From Aminobacter carboxidus (GTDB lineage Bacteria; Pseudomonadota; Alphaproteobacteria; Rhizobiales; Rhizobiaceae), in the NCBI RefSeq assembly GCF_014863355.1, contig NZ_JACZEP010000008.1, positions 1 through 64,000 on the forward strand: 64,000 bases of DNA. Direction: 5' to 3'. Every line of letters begins with the position of its first letter. Position 1 is the first letter of the stretch. This document shows, piece by piece, positions 1,017-14,406 of this stretch. The notes beneath the pieces are model-generated. The model searched no databases. It worked only from the letters and a program-made list of their open reading frames with translations, and was not told the DNA's origin. A program made the translations under genes and the position numbers.

Positions 1017-2078
1017 TCATGCGGCGCGGGCTGCAAGTAGAGCGTGGAGGGCTTCTGGCTTTAGGTGCGTATACCGCTTCAGCATCTTCCAGTCCTTGTG
1101 GCCGGTAACGAGTGCAACTTGCTCGATTGTGAATCCGGCCTCGAAAAGTCGGCTTGTGCCTTCGTGTCGCAAGTCGTGGAAGTGAAGGTCGTGGATACTC
1201 AGGTCGGCGCATCCGCGACGAAAAGCTGTGCCGACTGATCTGCCATTGAATGGGAAAATCCGATCATCGTTGTTACTTCGGCAGGCGCGCTGCTCCTCCA
1301 CGATGGCCCATGCGTCGTATCCGCATGCAGCGAAAAGCGGAATGCGCTGGTTGTTTCCCTGCTTGTTTCGGGGATCCTTCCGGTCACGGATGAGAAGCAT
1401 CCGGGTGCGACATTCCAGATCCGACCAACGCACCGTGCAGATTTCCTCTTGGCGCATTGCGGTAGCAACAGCGAAGCGGATGATCCGGCCAATTGGCGCA
1501 ATCTGGCGCGGGTTTGCGTCGAAATGCGAGATCAACCGGTCGAGTTCATCTTGGGTCGGACGACGGTCGCGCTCCTGCCCTTTGCCAACCAGACCTAGCT
1601 GTTTCAAAGCAATGCGGGCGAGGTCTACGGCCTCGATTGTAACGGGTAGGCCGTGAACTGCGGCCGCGTGAGACAGAATGAGCTTGATAGTGCCAATGTC
1701 GATGCCGAGGGTAGCAGGGCCTGCACCTTTTGCCGCTCGATCGCGGCCGAACCGAATGAGCCGCTCGCGATCGAGCGCCGCCATGTTGCACTTTCCAAGC
1801 TGACGCTTCAGCATATCCAGAGTCGCAGCTTTCGAGCGTCGAGGGGTCTTGCCGACGTCACACATGTCGTCGATATGAAGGTCGATGAGATCGCCGAAGG
1901 TTTTGAGGCGCGCGATGCGCGAGTGATTTGGCGTTTCGCCACGATCGATCTGGCGCTCCGCCTCAAGGGCCCAGCGTCGGGCATCGTCTCGCCGCAAGAA
2001 GGTCTCGCTGACGTAACGGCCTTTGCGACGAACTTGAACGCGCCAGGAGCCGGAATGGAGTTTTGTGAAACTGGCCAT
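1017..2078 (-). CDS. int: Tyrosine recombinase (integrase), dusA-associated
   Basis: Phage/island-type tyrosine recombinase of about 353 residues. The N-terminus ([17 protein letters not shown]) looks like an arm-binding domain, followed by a SAM-like core-binding domain and the catalytic domain. Catalytic residues are visible: Arg in [13 protein letters not shown], HxxR in [13 protein letters not shown], His in [10 protein letters not shown] and Tyr in KRYTHL. I chose the ATG at 2078; a GTG at 2102 would add eight residues. It is transcribed away from dusA, whose 5' end is a known integration target for prophages and islands. It looks intact although the element around it is degraded. Confidence 0.9.
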
Positions 2079-2082
2079 TTTT

Positions 2083-2161
2083 CGTGTGCGCTCCGTGTGC
2101 ACTCAGCCGTCGAACGGTGGCGAAAAGCGTCGCAATGTGGCGTAAATTCGTGTGCACTCGG
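2083..2161. repeat. Short repeats upstream of the integrase
   Basis: CGTGTGC occurs at 2083-2089, 2094-2100 and 2149-2155. The last two copies extend to CGTGTGCACTC. Clustered short direct repeats beside an integrase and an attachment site could be arm-type recombinase sites, but this is inference only. Confidence 0.35.
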
Positions 2162-2192: not shown

Positions 2193-2255
2193 ATGATGGA
2201 ATATCAAGAACATAGACTGGCCATTGCGCCCATGATGGATTGGACGGATCGGCAT
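2193..2255. other. Probable attachment-site junction in the 5' end of dusA
   Basis: The leader and the first nine or ten codons of dusA are AT-rich and unlike the rest of the gene. From about 2222 (encoding AIAPMMDWTDRHCR) the composition becomes GC-rich and matches dusA codon use. This is the pattern expected when an element integrates into dusA and supplies a replacement start. The exact crossover cannot be placed without an empty-site relative. Confidence 0.45.
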
Positions 2256-3188
2256 TGCCGGTTCTTCCATCGCCAGCTGACGCGCAAGGCGCTGCTCTAC
2301 ACCGAGATGGTGGTGGCGGATGCCGTCATCCATGGCGCGCGTGATCGGCTGCTCGGTTTCGACGCTTCCGAGCATCCGCTAGCGCTGCAGCTCGGCGGGT
2401 CGGATCCGGTCAAGCTTGCTGAGGCCGCGCGCATCGGCGAGGCGTTCGGCTATGACGAGATAAACCTCAATGTCGGCTGCCCCTCGGACCGCGTGCAGTC
2501 GGGGACCTTTGGCGCCTGCCTGATGAAGACGCCCGGCCTCGTCGCCGAAGGCGTCGCGGCGATGAAGGACGCGGTGAAGATACCGGTCACGGTAAAGTGC
2601 CGTATCGGCGTCGACGACCAGGACCCTGAGCCGGCGCTCGACGTGCTTGCCGATGGCGTGTTCGCCGCCGGGGCCGATGCGTTGTGGGTGCACGCGCGCA
2701 AGGCCTGGCTCGAAGGGCTGAGTCCCAAGGAAAACCGCGACATCCCGCCGCTCGATTACGGGCGCGTCTATCGCCTGAAGGCCCGGATGCCCGAGCGGTT
2801 CGTCGGCATCAACGGTGGCATCCTGACGCTCGAGGAAACGCGCGTGCATCTCTTCCATGTCGACGGCGTGATGCTCGGCCGCGCCGCCTACCACACGCCA
2901 GGCGTTCTGACCGGCGTCGATGCGTTGTTGCAGGACCTGTCTGCGCAGAGCTTCGACTTTGCCGCGCTGATCGAGGTCATGGCCGACTATGCCGGCAGGC
3001 ATATCGCCGCCGGTGGCCGCCTCGGCCATGTCAGCCGCCACATGGTCGGGCTGTTCCATGGTCTGGCCGGCGCCCGACGCTATCGCCAGATCCTGTCGAC
3101 CGACGCCAACAAACCAGGTGCCGGACCGCAGGTGCTGCGCGACGCGTTCGCCGCCGTCGACCTGACGAGCCGCAGCGAAGCAGCGTAG
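2193..3188 (+). CDS. dusA: tRNA-dihydrouridine(20/20a) synthase DusA
   Basis: FMN enzyme that reduces uridine to dihydrouridine in the tRNA D-loop; 331 residues, normal for DusA. It shows the N-terminal AIAPMMDWTDRHCR block, the FMN-barrel motif NLNVGCPSDRVQ with the conserved catalytic Cys, VKCRIGVDD, WVHARKAWLEGLSPKENR (typical of DusA rather than DusB/C) and GINGGI. Two consecutive ATGs (2193, 2196) are possible starts. The first codons appear to be supplied by the integrated element, yet the frame is kept, so the gene is probably functional. Confidence 0.93.
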   Translation: MMEYQEHRLAIAPMMDWTDRHCRFFHRQLTRKALLYTEMVVADAVIHGARDRLLGFDASEHPLALQLGGSDPVKLAEAARIGEAFGYDEINLNVGCPSDRVQSGTFGACLMKTPGLVAEGVAAMKDAVKIPVTVKCRIGVDDQDPEPALDVLADGVFAAGADALWVHARKAWLEGLSPKENRDIPPLDYGRVYRLKARMPERFVGINGGILTLEETRVHLFHVDGVMLGRAAYHTPGVLTGVDALLQDLSAQSFDFAALIEVMADYAGRHIAAGGRLGHVSRHMVGLFHGLAGARRYRQILSTDANKPGAGPQVLRDAFAAVDLTSRSEAA

Positions 3189-3505: not shown

Positions 3506-6139
3506 ATGGAAACGCCGCAACTGCCGGCCTTGCGCTCCTATCACTCATGGATCGCCAACGAGACACTGGAAGATTACTCGCTGCGTTACGCCGCCAGGTC
3601 GTTTCGCCGCTGGTCGCCATTCGTCATCGCCAACACCGCGCTCGGCGGCATCTCGTTTCTCGCCCTTGAGGCCATCGGCGGCGCGATAACGCTCAGCTAC
3701 GGCTTCGCCAATGCCTTTCCGGCGATCCTTGTGACGTGCGTCTTCATTTTCCTGACAAGCCTGCCGATCGCCTATTATTCCAGCCGCTACAACATCGACA
3801 TGGACCTTCTGACGCGAGGTGCCGGCTTTGGTTATGTCGGCTCCACCATCACCTCGCTGATCTACGCGACTTTCACCTTCATCTTCTTCGCCCTCGAGGG
3901 GGTGATCATGGCGCAGGCGCTCAATCTGTTTGCCGAGGTGCCGCTCGTGCTGGGCTATGTCATCTCTTCGGTGGTGATCATCCCGATCACTTTCATGGGC
4001 GTGACGCTGATCAGCAAGCTGCAGCTTCTGTCGCAGCCGATCTGGATCGCCATGCACCTGGCGCCATTCGCCTACATCCTGTTTGCCCATCCCGACACGC
4101 TGAACGAATGGGCGGCTTTCGTCGGCAGCGATGTCGTGGGCGAGGGGTTCAACTTCCTGGCATTCGGCTCGGCCATCGGCGTTTTGTGTGCGCTGTCGAT
4201 CCAGATCGGCGAACAGGTCGATTATCTGCGCTTCCTGCCCGACAAGACGCGTGATAACCGCTTCCGCTGGTGGGCGGCGGTGATCGCCGCAGGCCCGGGC
4301 TGGATCGTCGTCGGCGGCTTCAAGATCCTGTGCGGGAGCCTGTTGGCGGTACTGGCGATCCAGGCCGGCCTGTCGCGCTCGACCGCGCTCGAACCCATCC
4401 ACATGTACATCATAGCCTATGAGTATGTGAGCGCCGACCCGCGCGTCGTGCTCGCCCTGGCCGCGATCTTCGTGCTGATTTCCCAGGTCAAGATCAACGT
4501 CACCAACGCCTATGCAGGCTCGCTGGCATGGTCCAATTTCTTCTCGCGCGTCACCCACTACCACCCCGGCCGGGTGGTCTGGCTGGTGTTCAATATCCTG
4601 ATCTCGCTGCTGCTGATGCTTCTGGGCATCTTCCAGACGCTTGAGCTGGTGCTGGCGGTCTATTCGATCATCGCCGCCGCCTGGATCGGCGCGATCTTCG
4701 CCGATCTCGCCATCCTCAAGCCGCTCAAGATCAGCCCGGCTTTCCCCGAATTCAAGCGTGCTTACCTCTACAACTTCAATCCCGTCGGCTGCGGCTCGAT
4801 GGCATTGGCGTCGTTCGTCGCCTTGCTGTGCTTCTCGGGCATCTCAGGGGTCATGGCACAGGCCTATGCCGCCCCGATCGCATTTGTCACGGCACTCGGC
4901 AGCGCGGTCGCAATCGGGGTCGCGACCAAGGGGCGGTACTATCTGGCGCGCCAGCCTGTCGACCTGCCGGCAGCTCCATCGGACGCCAATCTGTGCGCCA
5001 TCTGCGGCGTCACCTACGAAGGCTCCGACATGGTGCACTGCACTTTCTACGAGCAGCCGATCTGCTCGTTGTGCTGCAGCCTGGATTCGCATTGCCACGA
5101 TGTCTGCAAGTCGCCGGTAGGTGTCCTCGAAACGTCACGGTCGCGCTATTTCGGGCGCGCGCTGCCGCACATACGCGACAAGATCGCGCCCCGCATGGGC
5201 CAGCGCCTGCTCAAGGTCGCGGGCGTGCTGTTCACCCTGGCGGTGATATCAGGCGGCGTGTTTCTGCTGACTTACCGGTTGATCGAACCGGGGTCGGAAC
5301 AACCCCATCTGGCGAGCGGCCAGTTGCTCTTGCGTGTCTTCCTGGCGATGCTGCCGCTGCTGGGCATCGGCGCCTGGTGGATCGTGCTGTCGCAGGAAAG
5401 CCGCGAGCTCGCCGAGCGTGATCTCGTCGCGTCGCTGGAAAAGCTGCGGCAGACCCAAAGGGATCTGGCGAGCAACGAGCGCCTGGCTGCCATCGGCCAG
5501 ATCACGGCGACCGTCAGCCACGAGCTGCGCAACCCGCTGGGCACGCTGGTGACGTCGGCTGATGTACTGCGTCGTTCGCTGAAGAATGCCGAAGAACCTG
5601 TGCATGGTGAACTGCAACGCTTGCAGCGCAACGCCTGGCGCTGCGTGCGGATCATCGAGGACCTGCTCGATTTCTCGCGTAAGCACGCTTTGATCGTCAC
5701 GCCGATCCTGATCGACCGGTGGGTGGCCCAGCATGTCGCCGAACAGGATGCGACGCGGCCGATACAGCTGGAGCTTGCTGCCGGTTGTAAAGTATCGGCA
5801 GATGGCGAGAGGCTGCGCCAGGCTTTTTCCAACGTTCTGGCCAATGCCATCCAGGCTTGCGAGGCGGCGGATGATGCGGCGATCGTCGTATCGACCCGCT
5901 GCGAGGGCGACAACGCCATCATCTGCGTTGCCGACAATGGTGCTGGCATGTCGCGGGAGACGGCGGCGCGGGTGTTCGAACCGTTGTTCAGCACCAAGGC
6001 GTTTGGCGTCGGATTGGGCATGCCGCTGGTCAAACGCATCGTCGAGCAGCATGGCGGCTCGGTGCTGATCGATAGCGAGCAGGGCGCGGGCACGCGCGTG
6101 TCGATCGTGCTGCCGAGGGCAGGTGCTGGTTCGTCATGA
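3506..6139 (+). CDS. NCS1-type permease fused to a sensor histidine kinase
   Basis: An 877-residue membrane protein. Residues about 25-475 form a multi-span domain resembling NCS1 nucleobase/allantoin permeases. Residues 497-534 hold eight cysteines (CAIC, HC, CSLCC, C, C), probably a metal-binding knuckle. Two further membrane spans follow at about 575-640, then a short coiled segment, HisKA with phospho-acceptor His672 in TVSHELRNPLG, and HATPase_c (N box NVLANAIQA, DNGAGM, GVGLGMPLVKRI). The design parallels CbrA, where an SLC5 transporter is joined to a kinase, but with another transporter family. It overlaps the next gene by ATGA. The ligand is unknown; the neighbouring fmdA and amiS suggest formamide or a related amide. 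Start: ATG 3506; an upstream in-frame GTG at 3461 is less likely. Confidence 0.85.
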   Translation: METPQLPALRSYHSWIANETLEDYSLRYAARSFRRWSPFVIANTALGGISFLALEAIGGAITLSYGFANAFPAILVTCVFIFLTSLPIAYYSSRYNIDMDLLTRGAGFGYVGSTITSLIYATFTFIFFALEGVIMAQALNLFAEVPLVLGYVISSVVIIPITFMGVTLISKLQLLSQPIWIAMHLAPFAYILFAHPDTLNEWAAFVGSDVVGEGFNFLAFGSAIGVLCALSIQIGEQVDYLRFLPDKTRDNRFRWWAAVIAAGPGWIVVGGFKILCGSLLAVLAIQAGLSRSTALEPIHMYIIAYEYVSADPRVVLALAAIFVLISQVKINVTNAYAGSLAWSNFFSRVTHYHPGRVVWLVFNILISLLLMLLGIFQTLELVLAVYSIIAAAWIGAIFADLAILKPLKISPAFPEFKRAYLYNFNPVGCGSMALASFVALLCFSGISGVMAQAYAAPIAFVTALGSAVAIGVATKGRYYLARQPVDLPAAPSDANLCAICGVTYEGSDMVHCTFYEQPICSLCCSLDSHCHDVCKSPVGVLETSRSRYFGRALPHIRDKIAPRMGQRLLKVAGVLFTLAVISGGVFLLTYRLIEPGSEQPHLASGQLLLRVFLAMLPLLGIGAWWIVLSQESRELAERDLVASLEKLRQTQRDLASNERLAAIGQITATVSHELRNPLGTLVTSADVLRRSLKNAEEPVHGELQRLQRNAWRCVRIIEDLLDFSRKHALIVTPILIDRWVAQHVAEQDATRPIQLELAAGCKVSADGERLRQAFSNVLANAIQACEAADDAAIVVSTRCEGDNAIICVADNGAGMSRETAARVFEPLFSTKAFGVGLGMPLVKRIVEQHGGSVLIDSEQGAGTRVSIVLPRAGAGSS

Positions 6140-7338
6140 CCGACCAGACCGACCTGCAGACCGATTTCATCGGCGACGATGTTATCCCGCACGGAGCGGA
6201 CCCGGTTGAGAAGAAGCGCGTCCTCATCGTCGACGACGACGAGGATTTTGCCGCGAGCCTGGCCGGATTGCTTGAACTCGAAGGCTATCAGCCAATCGTC
6301 GCGCATGATCCGTTGTCGGCCCAGCGCGCGCTGGCTTTGCACCAGCCGGCCGTTGCCCTTGTCGACGTGCGCTTGGGCGTGGGCAACGGTGTCGAACTGG
6401 TCCGCGCGTTTCGCCAGCAAAGCCCCGACCTCGTCTGCCTGATGGTCACCGCCTATGCCTCGGTCGAGACGGCGGTGGAGGCGTTGCAGGCCGGCGCCTA
6501 TGACTATCTGTGCAAGCCATTCTACAGCGCCGACCTGCTGGCGACTCTGGAACGCTGCTTCGAGCGAACGCGCCTGATGGAGGAGAAGCGCCTGGTCGCC
6601 GAGCGGCTCGGGCAAATGCAGCGCATCGAGGCGATGGGACAGTTGACCGGTGGCATTGCGCACGACTTCAACAACATCCTCGCTGTCCTGCTCGGCAATC
6701 TGCGCTGGCTGCAGGAGCATGTGCGAACCGAGCCGCAACTGGCACAGATGGTCGACGATGCGCTGGAGGCGGTGAAGGCGGGTACGGACCTGACGACGCG
6801 GCTGCTCAATTTCGGCCGCCAGGGGGGCGGCGACACGGTCCGCGTCGATCTCGGCGAAGCGTTGCCGGACTTGATGCGGGTGTTGAGCCGGACGCTGGAC
6901 GACAAGATCAGCCTTTCGCTGGAACTGGCCGACGACCTGCATGACGTCGAGGTTCATCCGACGCAACTGGAAACCAGCCTGCTCAACCTTGCGCTCAACG
7001 CGCGCGATGCGATGCCCGACGGCGGCAAGCTTAGGTTCGAGGCCTGCAACTTTGTCGTCAGGCCTGATGACGCGCGCGTCGCGTCGGGCCTGTTGCCTGG
7101 TCAGTACGTCGTCATTTCGGTGGTCGACACCGGGCACGGCATGCCGGTTGCGGTGCGCCGGCGGGCGCTGGAACCGTTATTCAGTACCAAGCCTGCGGGG
7201 AAAGGCAGCGGCCTTGGCCTGCCGATGGTCGATGGCTTCGTGCGCCAGTCAGGCGGCCGCCTCGGCATCTCCAGCAAGCCGGACGAGGGCACCCGGATCA
7301 ACCTCTATTTGCCGCGTGCGCCTCAGTCCCGGCCCTGA
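6136..7338 (+). CDS. Receiver domain-histidine kinase hybrid
   Basis: A 400-residue cytoplasmic protein with the reverse of the usual hybrid order. A receiver domain (about 33-150) comes first, with acidic cluster VDDDED, phospho-acceptor Asp in LVDVRLG, the Thr switch region MVTAYAS and the Lys in CKPF. A HisKA domain follows with His in GGIAHDFNNILAVL, then HATPase_c (ALNARDAMPDGG, VDTGHGMP, GKGSGLGLPMV). There is no membrane segment or DNA-binding domain. The start overlaps the permease-kinase stop by 4 bp, implying translational coupling. It may relay phosphate from the membrane kinase to the OmpR-type regulator next door. Its 3' end overlaps that convergent gene by 16 bp. Confidence 0.88.
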   Translation: MTDQTDLQTDFIGDDVIPHGADPVEKKRVLIVDDDEDFAASLAGLLELEGYQPIVAHDPLSAQRALALHQPAVALVDVRLGVGNGVELVRAFRQQSPDLVCLMVTAYASVETAVEALQAGAYDYLCKPFYSADLLATLERCFERTRLMEEKRLVAERLGQMQRIEAMGQLTGGIAHDFNNILAVLLGNLRWLQEHVRTEPQLAQMVDDALEAVKAGTDLTTRLLNFGRQGGGDTVRVDLGEALPDLMRVLSRTLDDKISLSLELADDLHDVEVHPTQLETSLLNLALNARDAMPDGGKLRFEACNFVVRPDDARVASGLLPGQYVVISVVDTGHGMPVAVRRRALEPLFSTKPAGKGSGLGLPMVDGFVRQSGGRLGISSKPDEGTRINLYLPRAPQSRP

Positions 7339-8060
7339 GGGGCGAACATGTAGCCGACGCCGCGAATGGTCTTGATGAATTGCGTGTCACGGGCATTGTC
7401 GCGCAGCTTGCGGCGTATCTTGCCGATCAGCACATCGATGCTGCGGTCATAGGGTGTCCAGTTGCGGTTGGCGACGATATCCAGGATCTGCTCGCGCGAC
7501 AGGATGCGGCCGCGCCGTTCGACCAGCGCCGACAGGATCTGGAATTCCTGGCTGGTCAGCCGCACGTTCTCGCCGTTCGGCGACGACAGCTTGTAGCGCG
7601 TTGCGTCCAGCATCCAGCCGTCGAAACATACCGCATTGGGACGATCCGCCGCCGCCGGTTCGGGCAGGTTGATGCGCTTGGCGAAGCGCCGCATCACCGT
7701 TCGTACCCGCGCCAGAAGCTCGCGCGGCTCGAACGGCTTGGTGACGTAGTCGTCGGCCCCCAGTTCGAGGCAGACAACCTTGTCGATCGTACTGTTCTTG
7801 CCCGACAGCATGATCAGCGGCAGGTCGTATTGGGAGCGCAGGTTGCGCGCCAGGGTGACGCCGTCCTCACCAGCGGGAAACCCGAGGTCAAGAATGACCA
7901 GATCGAACGGTTCGTCGGCAAGCGCGCGCCGCATCGAGCGCCCGTCATGGGCGATCGCCATGACGTAGCCCTCGCTTGCCAGGAACTTTTCGAGAAAGCT
8001 GCACAGCAGACGATCGTCATCGACAATGAGAATGCGTGATCTTGGGTCGGCAACTGACAT
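7323..8060 (-). CDS. OmpR-family response regulator
   Basis: A 245-residue regulator. The receiver domain has acidic pair VDDD, phospho-acceptor in LVILDLGFP, Ser in MLSGKNS and Lys in YVTKPF. The C-terminal winged helix carries LTSQEFQILSALVERRG, RSIDVLIGKIRRKL and TIRGVGYMF, all typical of OmpR/PhoB outputs. It starts at ATG 8060 and is divergent from fmdA, with a 363-bp spacer between them. It is convergent with the receiver-kinase gene. It is the obvious output protein of the local kinases; direct control of fmdA is inferred from position. Confidence 0.9.
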   Translation of the reverse strand: MSVADPRSRILIVDDDRLLCSFLEKFLASEGYVMAIAHDGRSMRRALADEPFDLVILDLGFPAGEDGVTLARNLRSQYDLPLIMLSGKNSTIDKVVCLELGADDYVTKPFEPRELLARVRTVMRRFAKRINLPEPAAADRPNAVCFDGWMLDATRYKLSSPNGENVRLTSQEFQILSALVERRGRILSREQILDIVANRNWTPYDRSIDVLIGKIRRKLRDNARDTQFIKTIRGVGYMFAPQGRD

Positions 8061-8423
8061 GGTTGCTACGATAATCGCAATTCGCGGGTTCGGTCGAGGA
8101 GGGAAGATGGCCATTGGTCGCAACCGGCGTTGCTCGTACGCGCGCGGGCAGGGGCCGGCATCTGCCGCCTGCAGGTGAATCCGTCTAACAATCTGAAAGT
8201 TATATCTAAAATTTCGGGGTTGTTGCGTTTGACGGGCGCTGACACAAACCGTCTGGTTACAAAAAATTACATAGTGGGCCGCTTTCCGATGCATGGCGAT
8301 TACAAGCCGCACCTAGCTTGGCCTCGCACGGCTGTGTCGGGTTGCATCGCGCTCTCGGCGCAAGGGCGAGGAAGGCGCGCAAGTCACACCTCCCAAAGCC
8401 GGCGATTGAGGAGGAACAGCCCA
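8061..8423. promoter_or_regulatory. Divergent regulatory region between the OmpR-type regulator and fmdA
   Basis: A 363-bp gene-free spacer. The stretch about 8180-8275 is distinctly AT-rich for this genome and contains TTGACG at 8229 and similar runs GTTATATCTAAAATTTC and GGTTACAAAAAATTACAT. These could be promoter elements or regulator sites, but no -35/-10 pair with good spacing is clear. A Shine-Dalgarno GAGGAGGAA lies just upstream of the fmdA ATG. Confidence 0.4.
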
Positions 8424-9650
8424 ATGCCACAGACAGTATTTTCAGTCGATTTGAACAAAGCGCCGGAAGATCATGCCATCAAGACGCATAACCGGTGGCA
8501 CCCTGATATTCCGATGGTGGATCACCTCAAGCCCGGGCACACCTATCGTGTCGAATGCCATGACTGGACGGGAGGCCAGATCGGCAACAACAACAGCGCC
8601 AACGACGTCCGCGACGTCGATCTGACGCGTGTCCATTATCTCAGCGGCCCGTTCGGCGTCGATGGCGCAGAACCCGGCGACCTGCTGGTTGTTGACATCC
8701 TCGACCTTGGCGCGAAACCGGATTCGGAATGGGGTTTCAACGGCCTGTTCGCCAAGGAGAACGGTGGCGGCTTCCTGACCGAGCATTACCCCGAAGCCAG
8801 CAAATCCTGCTGGGATTTCCATGGTATCTACACGACGTCGCGCCACATTCCAGGTGTGCGTTACCCCGGCATCATCCATCCCGGCCTGATCGGCTGCCTG
8901 CCGGACCACAAACTGCTTGCCGAAGCCAATCGTCGCGAAGCCGAGCTGGTGGCGACCGATCCAGGCCGCGTGCCGCCGCTGGCAGCTCTGCCTTATTCCG
9001 ACACGGCGCTGATGGGGCAGATGAAGGGCGATGCGGCGCGGAAGGCCGCGGCTGAGGCCTGGCGCACGGTTCCGCCGCGCGAGCACGGCGGCAACTGCGA
9101 CATCAAGAACCTGTCGCGCGGTTCAAAAGTCTACTTCCCGGTCTATGTGAAGGGCGGCGGACTCTCGATGGGCGACATTCACTTCTCCCAGGGCGATGGC
9201 GAAATCACCTTCTGCGGCGCCATCGAAATGGCCGGCTGGGTCGACATCAGCGTCGACGTCATCAAGGGCGGCATGGCGAAATACGGTGTCATCAACCCGA
9301 TCTTCAAGCCAAGCCCGATCGACCCGCATTTTGACGACTATCTCATCTTCGAGGGCATCTCGGTCGATGAGCATACCGGCGAACAGTATTATCTCGACGC
9401 CCATGTCGCCTATCGCCGGGCCTGCCTCAACGCCATCGAGTACCTCAAGAAGTTCGGCTACTCCGGCGAGCAGGCCTACATGATCCTGGGCACGGCGCCT
9501 GTCGAGGGCCGCATTGCCGGCATCGTCGACATTCCCAATGTCTGCGCCACCTTGGCCATCCCGACGGCGATTTTTGATTTCGACATCAATCCCAACGCCC
9601 ACGGACCCAAGAAGCAGGATTTCAAGGCCGACGTCGCCAAGACGAGCTGA
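8424..9650 (+). CDS. fmdA: Formamidase
   Basis: Hydrolyses formamide to formate and ammonia in the cytoplasm. The 408-residue length and sequence fit the acetamidase/formamidase family (FmdA type): RWHPDIP near the start, ECHDWTGGQIGNNNSANDV, FHGIYTTSRHIPGVRYPGIIHPGLIG, EHGGNCDIKNLSRGSKVYFPV and the DIHFSQGDGEITFCGAIE motif. The start at ATG 8424 follows a strong GAGGAGGAA ribosome site; an open frame extends upstream but is GC-poor non-coding sequence. It is the first gene of an fmdA-amiS-fmdB set and lies beside the permease-kinase relay, its likely controller. Confidence 0.95.
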   Translation: MPQTVFSVDLNKAPEDHAIKTHNRWHPDIPMVDHLKPGHTYRVECHDWTGGQIGNNNSANDVRDVDLTRVHYLSGPFGVDGAEPGDLLVVDILDLGAKPDSEWGFNGLFAKENGGGFLTEHYPEASKSCWDFHGIYTTSRHIPGVRYPGIIHPGLIGCLPDHKLLAEANRREAELVATDPGRVPPLAALPYSDTALMGQMKGDAARKAAAEAWRTVPPREHGGNCDIKNLSRGSKVYFPVYVKGGGLSMGDIHFSQGDGEITFCGAIEMAGWVDISVDVIKGGMAKYGVINPIFKPSPIDPHFDDYLIFEGISVDEHTGEQYYLDAHVAYRRACLNAIEYLKKFGYSGEQAYMILGTAPVEGRIAGIVDIPNVCATLAIPTAIFDFDINPNAHGPKKQDFKADVAKTS

Positions 9651-9677
9651 TCAGGCCGCAACAACAACAAACAAACC

Positions 9678-9704
9678 GCCGGTCGGGAGCGTGTCCCGAC
9701 CGGC
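9678..9704 (+). terminator. Hairpin between fmdA and the amide channel gene
   Basis: A perfect 11-bp inverted repeat (9678-9688 with 9694-9704) and 5-base loop lie in the 75-bp gap. It has no strong T run, so it may attenuate expression of amiS relative to fmdA or protect the fmdA mRNA end rather than stop transcription fully. Confidence 0.6.
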
Positions 9705-9725
9705 GTTGTCCTGGGAGGGGATTTC

Positions 9726-10238
9726 ATGCTGCTCGGATTTGCCTTGCTCTACGTTGGTGCCGTCCTGTTCCTGAATGGGCTCTGGCTGCTCGGGAAGATC
9801 GAAGACCGCGAGATCGTCGTCATCAACGTCGTCTCCGGCATCGTAACGTTTTTCGCGTCGCTGGCCTGGGCGTTCGGGCCCAACGCTGACGCTGCCTCCA
9901 TCAAGGGGGCTGCGCTGACGATCCTGTTTTCGACGACCTATTTTTGGGTGGCCTATAACAGGGTGGTGAAGGTGGACGGACGTGGCCTTGGCTGGTTCAG
10001 CCTGTTCGTCGCCATCACCACTATTCCCGTGGCGGTACAAGGACTTTCCACCGCCCAGACATCGACCGATTTCTGGCTGGCGTCCAACTGGGTGATCTGG
10101 GGCGTGCTGTGGTTCCTGTATTTCCTGCTTCTGGCATTGCAGCGGCCGATCCTGCGCCTGACGGCGATCGTCACACTGCTTGCGGGCATCGTCACCGGCT
10201 GGCTGCCGGGCTTCCTGCTGCTCGATGGTAAGCTCTGA
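9726..10238 (+). CDS. amiS: AmiS/UreI-family amide/urea channel
   Basis: A 170-residue integral membrane protein with about six hydrophobic segments. It opens with MLLGFALLYVGAVLFLNGLW, the signature of AmiS/UreI proteins, and has NVVSGIVTFF and NWVIWGVLWFLYFLLLAL. These proteins pass urea or short-chain amides across the inner membrane. A Shine-Dalgarno GGGAGGGG precedes the ATG. Following fmdA, it most likely admits formamide for hydrolysis, though urea remains possible. Confidence 0.88.
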   Translation: MLLGFALLYVGAVLFLNGLWLLGKIEDREIVVINVVSGIVTFFASLAWAFGPNADAASIKGAALTILFSTTYFWVAYNRVVKVDGRGLGWFSLFVAITTIPVAVQGLSTAQTSTDFWLASNWVIWGVLWFLYFLLLALQRPILRLTAIVTLLAGIVTGWLPGFLLLDGKL

Positions 10239-10349
10239 CGGCAGCGCAGGCCATCTGGCCAGGCGTGGGTAGCCAGGCCTGGCAATTTGCGAGCGGGCGA
10301 GCCCCTTCGCCCGCCACATTGTTTCACTTGATGTTTTGGGAGGCTGGCA

Positions 10350-10649
10350 ATGCCGCTCTACAACTATGTTTGTGACGATTGCGGACCATTTGAAGAATGG
10401 GTGCCGATGCAGGACGCGCTCAGGGCCTGCGCGTGCCCGCAATGTGAGGAACAGAGCAGCCGGGATGTGGCAGCGCCGCGCCTGAGCCTGATGAATGGCA
10501 AGCTGCGCCGCGCACTGGCACGTTCAGAGGCAAGCGGCACCGAGCCGAAGGTGGTCAAGAAGGCGCATCTCAACGGCTGCGGCTGCGCGCTCTGCAAGAT
10601 CGGCAACAAGCCGACCCCGACACGCAAGAAGTGGATGATCGGCCACTAG
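10350..10649 (+). CDS. fmdB: FmdB-family zinc-ribbon protein
   Basis: A 99-residue protein beginning MPLYNYVCDDCG with a second knuckle CPQC, the zinc ribbon of FmdB, first linked to regulation of formamidase. The C-terminus adds NGCGCALCKIGNKPTPTRKKW, a further Cys-rich patch. It lies 111 bp after amiS and its presence supports the formamide role of the cluster. The molecular function of FmdB is not well established. Confidence 0.85.
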   Translation: MPLYNYVCDDCGPFEEWVPMQDALRACACPQCEEQSSRDVAAPRLSLMNGKLRRALARSEASGTEPKVVKKAHLNGCGCALCKIGNKPTPTRKKWMIGH

Positions 10650-11896: not shown

Positions 11897-12892
11897 ATGA
11901 CCAGCGCTTCCCCCTTTGACGACTTCCGCAACCTATTTGCGCATATGCCCGAAGGCGATGTCGCCCAGGCGGGCAAGGTGTGGGCGCTGTTTGCCAAGGC
12001 CGACAAGCCGAAAGGCTCGCTCGGCCGCATCGAGGATATCGCAGCCTGGCTGGCGCGCTGGACGGGCCGCGCGCCGCCCTCCGTGCTCAAGCCGATGGTT
12101 GCGATCTTTGCCGGGAATCACGGTGTCGCGGCGCAGGGCGTGTCGCCACGGGCGATGGAAGCCACGGCCCAGCGGGTCGAGCTGTGCGCCGCCGGCGGCG
12201 CTGCGATCAACCAGATTTGCCTTGCCAATGACCTTGGCCTGAAGGTGCTCGATCTGGCGCTGCACCTGCCGACATCAGACATCACCGTCGAGCCGGCGCT
12301 CGACGAGCGCGGCTGCGCCGCTACCATGGCTTTCGGCATGGAGGCCATTGCCGGCGGCAGCGACCTGTTCTGCATCGGCGACCTCGGTGTCGCCAACACG
12401 ACCGTTGCCGCGGCCCTTTGCGCAGCACTGTTCGGCGGCAAGGGCGCCGACTGGGTTGGGCCAGGTTCTGGCGCCGACGCTGCGATGCAGGCCCGGAAGG
12501 CCGAGATCGTCGACCGTGCGCTGGCCCTGCATGGCCCTCATATCAAGGACCCGTTCGAAGCCTTGCGCCGGGTCGGCGGTCGCGAATTCGCGGCCATCGC
12601 CGGTGCTATCCTTGCCGCGCGCATGGAAAAGATTCCGGTGCTGCTCGACGGCTTTGCCACGACCGCCGCGGCCGCCGTGCTTTATGCCGTCGACCGCACG
12701 GCGCTTGACCATTGCATGTTCTCGCATGTCTCGACCGAGCCGGGCCACGCCCGCTTGCTGGCAAAGCTCGGCGCGCGGCCCTTGCTCGGGCTTGGCATCG
12801 ATCACGGCGAGGCGGTTGGTGCGGGAATTGCCGCTGGGCTCGTCAAAACAGCGGCGCAGATCAGTTCGGGAATGGCAGCGGCGATCCGCTGA
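11897..12892 (+). CDS. cobT: Nicotinate-nucleotide-dimethylbenzimidazole phosphoribosyltransferase
   Basis: Makes alpha-ribazole phosphate from nicotinate mononucleotide and dimethylbenzimidazole for the lower ligand of cobalamin. The 331-residue length is normal. It shows KPKGSLGRIEDIAAWLARW, AIFAGNHGVAAQGVSPR, the glycine-rich GDLGVANTTVAAAL, LLDGFATTAAAAVLY and HVSTEPGHARLLAKLG, all CobT blocks. The C-terminal GIDHGEAVGAG holds the conserved Glu region. No other cobalamin genes are nearby. Confidence 0.95.
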   Translation: MTSASPFDDFRNLFAHMPEGDVAQAGKVWALFAKADKPKGSLGRIEDIAAWLARWTGRAPPSVLKPMVAIFAGNHGVAAQGVSPRAMEATAQRVELCAAGGAAINQICLANDLGLKVLDLALHLPTSDITVEPALDERGCAATMAFGMEAIAGGSDLFCIGDLGVANTTVAAALCAALFGGKGADWVGPGSGADAAMQARKAEIVDRALALHGPHIKDPFEALRRVGGREFAAIAGAILAARMEKIPVLLDGFATTAAAAVLYAVDRTALDHCMFSHVSTEPGHARLLAKLGARPLLGLGIDHGEAVGAGIAAGLVKTAAQISSGMAAAIR

Positions 12893-12906
12893 CCAACACG
12901 GATACC

Positions 12907-14406
12907 CTAGCGGCCGCCGGCAGCGCTGCGCGCCAGCGAGGGCAGGTCGTCGATCACCCGCGCCGGCGGAAAGACCGCGATGGCCTCGGTGCCTTCGCGC
13001 AGCTTGGAGCGCAGTTCGAACTCACCGCCATGCAGCGCAAGCAGGCCCTGGACGATGGGCAGGCCCAGGCCGGTTCCCTGTTCGGCGCTCTTGATGGCGA
13101 TCGAGCCCTGGCCGAAAGCCGACAGCACGACGGGGATTTCGTCGGCGGGAATGCCCGGACCCTTGTCTTTGACCGAGATGTACTGGCCGCCGCCGGCGGT
13201 CCAGCCGACGCGGACGCGGATTTCGCTGCCCGTCGGCGAAAACTTGATGGCGTTGGACAGAAGGTTGAGCGTGATCTGGCGGATGGCGCGCTCGTCGCCG
13301 AGAAGCCGTGGCAGCGACGGCTCGAACTGCTCGACGATCTTGAGATCCTTGTTGCGCGCCTTGAGCTCCATCATGTGGCAGCAATCCTCGACCACCTGGA
13401 GCAGCATCAACGGCTCTTCGTTGAGCTGGTAGCGGCCGGCCTCGATGCGCGACAGGTCGAGGATCTCGTTGATCAGGTCGAGCAGATGCTGACCGGACTG
13501 GTGGATGTCGCGGGAGTATTCGCGATAGGTCGGGCTGTTGATCGGGCCAAGCACCTCGCCGGCCATGACTTCGGAAAAGCCGAGGATGGCGTTGAGCGGG
13601 GTGCGCAGTTCGTGGCTCATGGTAGCCAGGAAGCGCGACTTGGCGAGATTGGCGTCTTCGGCGCGGCGCCGCGCCTCGTCGGACATCGACTTCGCCGTCT
13701 CCAGTTCGGCAATCAACGCGTCCATTTCGGAGCGGGCGGCCATCAACAGCAGCGCTGACCGCTTCTTGATCCCGGCGACAAGCGAAAAGAAGGGCAGGGC
13801 TGTGACCAGCAGCGCGACCATGACCATGCCAAGCGGCTCGGACAGCTTGACGCCGAAGGCGGCATAGGCGGCTACGGGGACGACGAAGGTCGCTGCCAGC
13901 GCGCCGCGCAGCGACGATGCAACGATCGCGGTGGCAGCCATGGCGATGAGCAGGAAAGCGCCTTTGACGATGGCCAGCAGGCCGGGTTCGCAGGCCGCAC
14001 AGGTCATGGCGGCCAGATACGCCCAGGCGAGGCCAGTGACGAAATGGCCGATGAAGAAGTTGCGGCGGATGGCCGCAGGCGCTGCCTCATCGGCGCGGCG
14101 GGCAAGTAACGCCAGCCCGGCATAGCCCATCATCGCGACCAGCGACCATTTCAGGATGGCGTCGTCAGCGCCGAGCAGAAGGCCGATGCAGGCGAAGATG
14201 ACGATCAGAAGCGGCAATGTCGCCGCATTGGCTCTGATTGAACGGGCATGCAGCTTCAGCAGTTCGCGGTCGAAAGCCAGTCCGCCTGGCTGCTGCGCCA
14301 GCTGATCGCGTGTCTTGCGCACAGCACGAGCGACATCGCTGTTGCGATGGCGTTTCCTGCGGTCCACAATGATCTTGTCCGCCGTGTTAGAGCGTTGCAA
14401 CGGCAT
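12907..14406 (-). CDS. Membrane sensor histidine kinase, DivJ/PleC/PdhS-like kinase core
   Basis: A 499-residue kinase. The N-terminal half has about six hydrophobic segments (about 58-215) without a recognisable ligand domain. A coiled segment leads to HisKA with phospho-acceptor His in SRFLATMSHELRTPLNAI and FSEVMAGEVLGPI, a wording typical of the alphaproteobacterial PleC/DivJ/PdhS group. HATPase_c follows (NLLSNAIKFSPTGSEI, DKGPGIPADEI, GTGLGLPIVQGL). There is no cognate regulator next door, consistent with kinases acting on DivK or PleD, but the target is inferred only from sequence style. Confidence 0.85.
   Translation of the reverse strand: MPLQRSNTADKIIVDRRKRHRNSDVARAVRKTRDQLAQQPGGLAFDRELLKLHARSIRANAATLPLLIVIFACIGLLLGADDAILKWSLVAMMGYAGLALLARRADEAAPAAIRRNFFIGHFVTGLAWAYLAAMTCAACEPGLLAIVKGAFLLIAMAATAIVASSLRGALAATFVVPVAAYAAFGVKLSEPLGMVMVALLVTALPFFSLVAGIKKRSALLLMAARSEMDALIAELETAKSMSDEARRRAEDANLAKSRFLATMSHELRTPLNAILGFSEVMAGEVLGPINSPTYREYSRDIHQSGQHLLDLINEILDLSRIEAGRYQLNEEPLMLLQVVEDCCHMMELKARNKDLKIVEQFEPSLPRLLGDERAIRQITLNLLSNAIKFSPTGSEIRVRVGWTAGGGQYISVKDKGPGIPADEIPVVLSAFGQGSIAIKSAEQGTGLGLPIVQGLLALHGGEFELRSKLREGTEAIAVFPPARVIDDLPSLARSAAGGR

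Follow-up and report, generated by a model that had tools for sequence, protein, structure and literature searches.

Sensor kinases that carry a transporter domain have been described in several forms. The SLC5/STAC kinases CbrA, CrbS and RpuS have a LeuT-type transporter domain fused to a kinase and function in nutrient sensing (PMC13022988 for CbrA), and in the ammonium sensor kinase Ks-Amt5 an Amt transporter domain serves as the receptor of the kinase (PMC8534201). The fmd genes of Methylophilus methylotrophus, in which formamidase genes lie alongside uptake genes, were reported to be induced by formamide and urea, and the available portions of that report name no sensor kinase (PMC10781810). 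The locus analyzed here lies in a 64,000-nucleotide stretch of Aminobacter carboxidus DNA (contig NZ_JACZEP010000008.1, positions 1 to 64,000; hereafter the window) and encodes a permease-histidine kinase fusion close to the formamidase gene fmdA. The Pfam matches of the permease-kinase included neither SSF (PF00474) nor an Amt family, and its identity as an SLC5 or Amt sensor was rejected. It also differs from the SLC5/STAC kinases in having a cysteine (Cys) module and two extra hydrophobic segments before the kinase and in its formamidase and urea gene context. AmiC/AmiR likewise provides amide-responsive control of amidase genes (PMC13209695), but with a cytoplasmic receptor and an antiterminator, and the locus proteins scanned match neither. 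A literature search found no NCS1-like kinase or sensor for fmd genes, with subscription journals mostly outside the search; the original prediction, too, knew of no described NCS1 sensor that controls formamidase.

The six open reading frames (ORFs) were found at the positions previously given for them, and, the NCS1 label of the permease part excepted, domain scans confirmed the assigned identities. The permease-kinase (3506-6139, + strand; 877 amino acids (aa)), identified from its ORF and from Pfam and NCBIfam searches, is a histidine kinase in having HisKA and HATPase_c with the His, N and G boxes. Its gene is joined by an ATGA overlap to that of a 400-aa receiver-kinase (6136-7338, + strand), in which domain scan and alignment revealed a receiver (REC) domain with Asp77, HisKA with His176, and HATPase_c. 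Tail to tail with the receiver-kinase gene, with a 16-bp overlap (7323-7338), lies the gene for an OmpR-type response regulator (7323-8060, - strand); REC with Asp58 and Trans_reg_C, found in the same way, give it the receiver and winged-helix DNA-binding domains of the OmpR/PhoB family. The regulator gene is divergent from fmdA (8424-9650, + strand), whose product matched the NCBIfam equivalog NF045496 at 751 bits (cut-off 500) and whose start is probably the ATG at 8424, with GGAGGA upstream. Genes for an AmiS/UreI-type channel (9726-10238, + strand; PF02293) and an FmdB-family zinc-ribbon protein (10350-10649, + strand; TIGR02605/PF09723, above cut-off) follow. The permease-kinase has 59 named relatives, the closest of which belong to two Aminobacter loci with 96% identity over aa 1-645. 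The arrangement is not due to chance because dozens of loci repeat the gene set.

Gene linkage, genome co-occurrence, a conserved and near-unique operator-like site and retained phospho-acceptor residues emerged from our comparison of these loci. From these we infer, with fair confidence, that the permease-kinase is an amide or urea receptor made from a permease, which signals to the OmpR-type regulator that activates fmdA-amiS-fmdB. The receptor would derive from a little-described permease family distantly related to NCS1, for which formamide, other short amides and urea are the probable natural ligands, and it would sense in place of transporting. A ligand in the permease domain would act through the cytoplasmic Cys module and the two extra helices on the kinase, and the signal would then reach the OmpR-type regulator, most likely through the receiver-kinase. 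The regulator would bind TTACA repeats ahead of fmdA and activate the operon; AmiS would admit the amide and FmdA would convert it to formate and ammonia.

The association with formamidase was evaluated in two sets of genomes. A scan of genome contigs with peptide patterns taken from the protein in the window yielded the 59 named permease-kinase loci, a set that for this reason leans to close relatives. FmdA was encoded on the stretch in 50 of these loci, 41 with AmiS and nine with urt genes, and the remaining nine had no FmdA, AmiS or urt, eight of them on short or ending contigs. In a less biased draw of 398 Pseudomonadota genomes, the permease-kinase was detected by strong match in 52 (a raw tally of 56 includes three weak permease matches and one fragment) and FmdA in 40, of which 39 also held the permease-kinase. 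The corresponding Fisher p of 1e-41 is a measure of strength rather than a probability because the genomes share ancestry. The permease-kinase occurred without FmdA in 13 genomes, and the lone FmdA genome without it (G114) had no system marker around its fmdA. Thus, the signalling genes accompany fmdA as had been predicted, and the genome co-occurrence check proposed at that time did not reveal them consistently without fmdA/amiS, apart from the exceptions considered below. Control of fmdA by the kinase is well supported by comparison.

Gene neighborhoods were counted at all 56 strong places besides the window's own. Fifty-four of the 56 kinase loci adjoin fmdA or the genes for urea transport (urt) or urease; at the remaining two (L158 and L186) the stretch is cut by a contig end. 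The stretch contained fmdA at 38 loci and urt or urease without fmdA at 16 more. These 16 loci, together with the reported induction by urea of the M. methylotrophus fmd genes (PMC10781810), would be expected if urea were the main ligand and formamidase were induced within a urea and short-amide nitrogen response, with formamide a weaker or gratuitous inducer. The presence of fmdA at 38 of the 56 loci and the absence of urt and urease markers from the stretches of the window's own fmdA and amiS branch make this explanation rather unlikely.

A candidate operator, conserved and unique in the genome, was found in front of fmdA and supports the suggested connection between the regulator and fmdA. 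A shared-repeat search revealed the direct repeat TTACA-N5-TTACA (8257-8271, + strand), and a motif search added a third half-site, also TTACA, at a distance of 43 bp from the first (8300-8304, + strand). The repeat was present in 36 of the 37 rows of the gap between the OmpR-type regulator gene and fmdA; because two of the rows (L187 and L188) duplicate L031 and L024, the count is 34 of 35 named OmpR-type loci. The single miss (L051) has a TTACA pair with one mismatch, and each of 36 rows, of which one is a repeat, had a third TTAC at a distance of 42-44 bp from the first. In 50 shuffles, which were based on composition and ignored the kinship of the rows, no repeat was common to more than two of the 37 rows and a chance operator was rejected. 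The 718,723 bp of the 35 loci contained 34 sites, each no more than 480 nt upstream of the regulator gene. In Paracoccus seriniphilus (L125), where fmdA faces the kinase gene, the site lies in the gap between these two genes and is directed at fmdA, which associates it with fmdA instead of the promoter of the regulator itself. The TTACA pair occurred once in the 6.29-Mb genome of the window, compared to seven times for a reversed-pattern control. The three-part pattern had a single occurrence, ahead of fmdA, in each of five genomes with FmdA above cut-off (G197 and G091 among these were searched for the kinase, and both had it) and was not found in five congeners without FmdA above cut-off. 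Neither eight scanned loci of other types (Caballeronia, Variovorax and L008) nor the scanned loci with LuxR-type regulators contained the site. The TTACA repeats are likely the operator through which fmdA would be controlled.

The proteins of the proposed signalling chain have retained their phospho-acceptor residues. In the permease-kinase, HisKA and HATPase_c span aa 664-871 (5495-6118, + strand; domain scan and alignment) with the phospho-acceptor His672, and they are preceded by two extra hydrophobic segments in the hydropathy profile (aa 571-589 and 611-629; 5216-5392, + strand). Among the alignable named loci, His672 is kept in 56 of 57, the regulator's Asp58 in 35 of 35, and the receiver-kinase's Asp77 and His176 each in 36 of 36. 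Further upstream in the permease-kinase is a linker with eight invariant Cys (aa 497-534; 4994-5107, + strand; from the alignment of kinases). All eight were present in each of the 129 kinases compared; among standalone permeases of the family, all eight were present in L131 and L221 and four in L129, and the linker is possibly a metal or iron-sulfur module. The receiver-kinases of three loci (L028, L032 and L051) contain a second REC, and those of L028 and L051 additionally contain PAS or GAF domains. Clade-B loci that were examined have a hybrid kinase and a LuxR regulator and no receiver-kinase, as would be expected if the kinase phosphorylated its regulator directly. A direct route in the window, with the receiver-kinase as a side branch or phosphatase, appears doubtful given the complete retention of Asp77 and His176 and the second REC in the three receiver-kinases above. 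A signal route from the permease-kinase via the receiver-kinase to the OmpR-type regulator is the most likely order.

The permease domain (aa 1-490; 3506-4975, + strand) has about 12 hydrophobic segments, counted as hydropathy peaks with overlapping windows merged by eye. Its description as NCS1-type stood as remote kinship and failed as direct family membership. Searches with aa 1-645 gave a chance match to DUF7503 alone and no PF02133 in Pfam at E values up to 10, and no match in NCBIfam at E values up to 1. A 19-row permease profile matched no Protein Data Bank (PDB) chain at E values up to 10, and PDB searches with two relatives returned no NCS1 structure and a single unrelated match at E 0.01. 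When hhalign was used to compare the permease profile directly with individual NCS1 proteins, the three comparisons gave 0.05-15%. As a positive contrast, two NCS1 genes of the window's own genome match PF02133. A bridge toward NCS1 is provided by L132, a standalone permease from another genome with 27-32% identity. The permease profile aligned to L132 with 99.85% (E 1.4e-30, 440 columns), and L132 in turn matched PF02133 with 36.4 bits, above the cut-off of 23.5, and TIGR00800 with E 2.5e-16, yet at 59 bits, far below the cut-off of 353. The standalone permease L129 also showed a faint cytosine-permease match in NCBIfam (E 3e-4). Because the direct tests failed while L132 bridges to NCS1, the permease domain is best described as a remote relative of NCS1 and not as a member.

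The genomic settings of three standalone permeases of the family (L221, L131 and L129) bear on the ligand. The L221 permease gene sits between the kinase gene and fmdA-fmdB-amiE; that of L131 follows the kinase and regulator genes and precedes an aliphatic amidase gene in a locus that holds fmdA; and that of L129 lies directly ahead of a urease operon on an Acinetobacter plasmid. Among the neighbors of the more distant L132 are proteins that, by eye rather than by search, resemble nitrilase and AmiC/AmiR. The location of standalone permeases in fmdA or urease clusters argues for short amides or urea rather than nucleobases and points to formamide, other short amides and urea as the predicted ligands. 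The remote kinship with NCS1 would suit a sensor for a nucleobase, the alternative ligand originally suggested, or for allantoin or a similar NCS1 substrate as a source of formamide. However, the scored neighbors of the family are amide and urea genes, namely those for formamidase, aliphatic amidase, urea ABC transport and urease (the scoring did not extend to nucleobase genes), and we regard this alternative as very improbable. In a second region of the window's genome, on another contig (L240; G000:C1:664800-684300), a match to PF03069 is split, a weakly related permease is encoded at L240:9415-10752, and one protein resembles an amide receptor by eye.

A tree of 85 rows, made with a quick method with SH-like approximate likelihood ratio test (SH-aLRT) support alone and without the short duplicate loci L063-L124 and L190-L220 or rows that were more than 86% identical or under 380 residues, placed the three standalone permeases in one group (SH-aLRT 97). 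The fmdA and amiS branch of the window comprised 19 rows (SH-aLRT 99). A third branch of 55 rows (SH-aLRT 96) had mostly fmdA and urt, urt or urease as neighbors, with several changes of neighbor type within it. The residues of 129 kinases, not thinned for kinship and excluding the same short duplicate loci and kinase frames under 860 aa, were compared to those of the three standalone permeases. Only five of the 119 positions conserved in the kinases differed in all three standalone permeases: Phe51/Tyr, Glu55/Gln or Phe, Ala73/Gly or Ser, Ile169/Leu, and Ala337/Ser. That most conserved positions are common to both forms would suit a permease-kinase that signals while transporting, as reported for CbrA, which takes up histidine and signals (PMC13022988). 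In contrast, Ks-Amt5 binds its substrate yet hardly transports it (PMC8534201), and the five differing positions set the kinases apart as if the permease site had changed role, with three standalone permeases being few for this comparison. A transporting sensor thus seems improbable, and a receptor that senses in place of transport is preferred.

A different output was found in the third branch, where the kinases scanned (L055 and L127) are hybrids with REC and the regulators scanned (L055 and L128) are of the LuxR type. Of 52 gaps separating the kinase gene from urtA, 38 contained the palindrome TACG-N8-CGTA, compared to eight for the best shuffled pair; gaps over 800-900 bp were left out, so that 52 of 61 were used. 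Over the 1.02 Mb of these 52 kinase-urtA stretches (e.g., L126, L133 and L141), 43 of 52 TACG-N8-CGTA sites lay within the gap, and the palindrome is a putative target of the LuxR-type regulators. The occurrence of fmdA together with urt genes is mentioned in two genome papers from 2026, which assign no function in the portions available (PMC13296017, PMC13209695). The urtABCDE-fmdA loci with LuxR-type two-component genes in the former match the neighborhood of the LuxR branch, whereas the urt-fmdA loci in the latter are without such genes. The loci of PMC13296017 are described there by annotation alone, and its available text does not discuss a permease sensor, a ligand, an operator or the OmpR type. 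In PLSDB, 527 plasmid records matched the permease-kinase, 342 of them from Klebsiella. On the one Klebsiella plasmid viewed (L127), the permease-kinase gene faces urtABCDE and a formamidase gene annotated at 1008 bp.

Several observations weigh against the proposed control of formamidase by an amide receptor. Nitratireductor pacificus (L008) is a true exception, with a kinase and a receiver-kinase and no regulator or fmdA. In a gammaproteobacterial draw of 274 genomes with 16 matches, one of them weak, 14 stretches of strong matches were compared (G193 and G019, already in the comparison, were left out); seven had fmdA, urt or urease and seven had no amide or urea marker. Five of the latter reach a contig end (L222, L225, L231, L233 and L234), but L223 and L224 have full flanks and still no marker; L222, L223, L224, L225 and L231 are marker-less over stretches of 15-19.5 kb. 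L223 and L224 group in the tree with members from Campylobacterota, on whose contigs, though short, no amide genes were found. These exceptions suggest that the amide and urea link is the rule for most of the permease-kinase family and not for each branch. In L030, L032, L033 and L044 the TTACA site and fmdA are separated by about 1.4-1.6 kb, which include a gene-sized ORF. The gene after the kinase gene in L034 (Caballeronia; 12727-13995) encodes a REC-EAL protein and not a DNA-binding regulator, hinting at a cyclic-di-GMP output in the one Caballeronia locus scanned, and loci of this type are without the TTACA site. Comparison of the permease profile to the NCS1 alignment by direct hhalign gave 0.76%. 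Finally, all comparisons rest on related sequences, and the support comes from sequence comparison.

On the other side of the permease-kinase gene, a phage-type integrase gene adjoins dusA (window 1017-2102, - strand, and 2196-3188, + strand), a known integration site. Next to the integrase gene is an ORF that, by eye, resembles the start of an ABC-transporter ATPase (567-962, - strand).

A wider interpretation, which we offer tentatively, is that the family comprises urea and short-amide transporters with a cytoplasmic Cys module that have gone unrecognized, and that it was turned into a receptor in at least one lineage when two extra helices and a kinase were joined to it and positions such as 55 (Gln/Glu) and 337 (Ser/Ala) changed. 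The receptor would then be the sensor so far missing for the inducers of formamidase, urea-uptake and urease operons across Pseudomonadota, and its signal would have two main outputs, an OmpR-type regulator at TTACA repeats and a LuxR-type regulator at TACG-N8-CGTA. Within the family, the standalone permeases lend themselves to a comparison of transporter with receptor. Together with its regulator and the predicted site on the DNA, the permease-kinase is a concrete candidate sensor for formamidase induction, and if this proposal is true another transporter type would join SLC5 and Amt among the sensor kinases. The plasmid-borne members suggest that the use of amides and urea may spread along with a sensor of its own.

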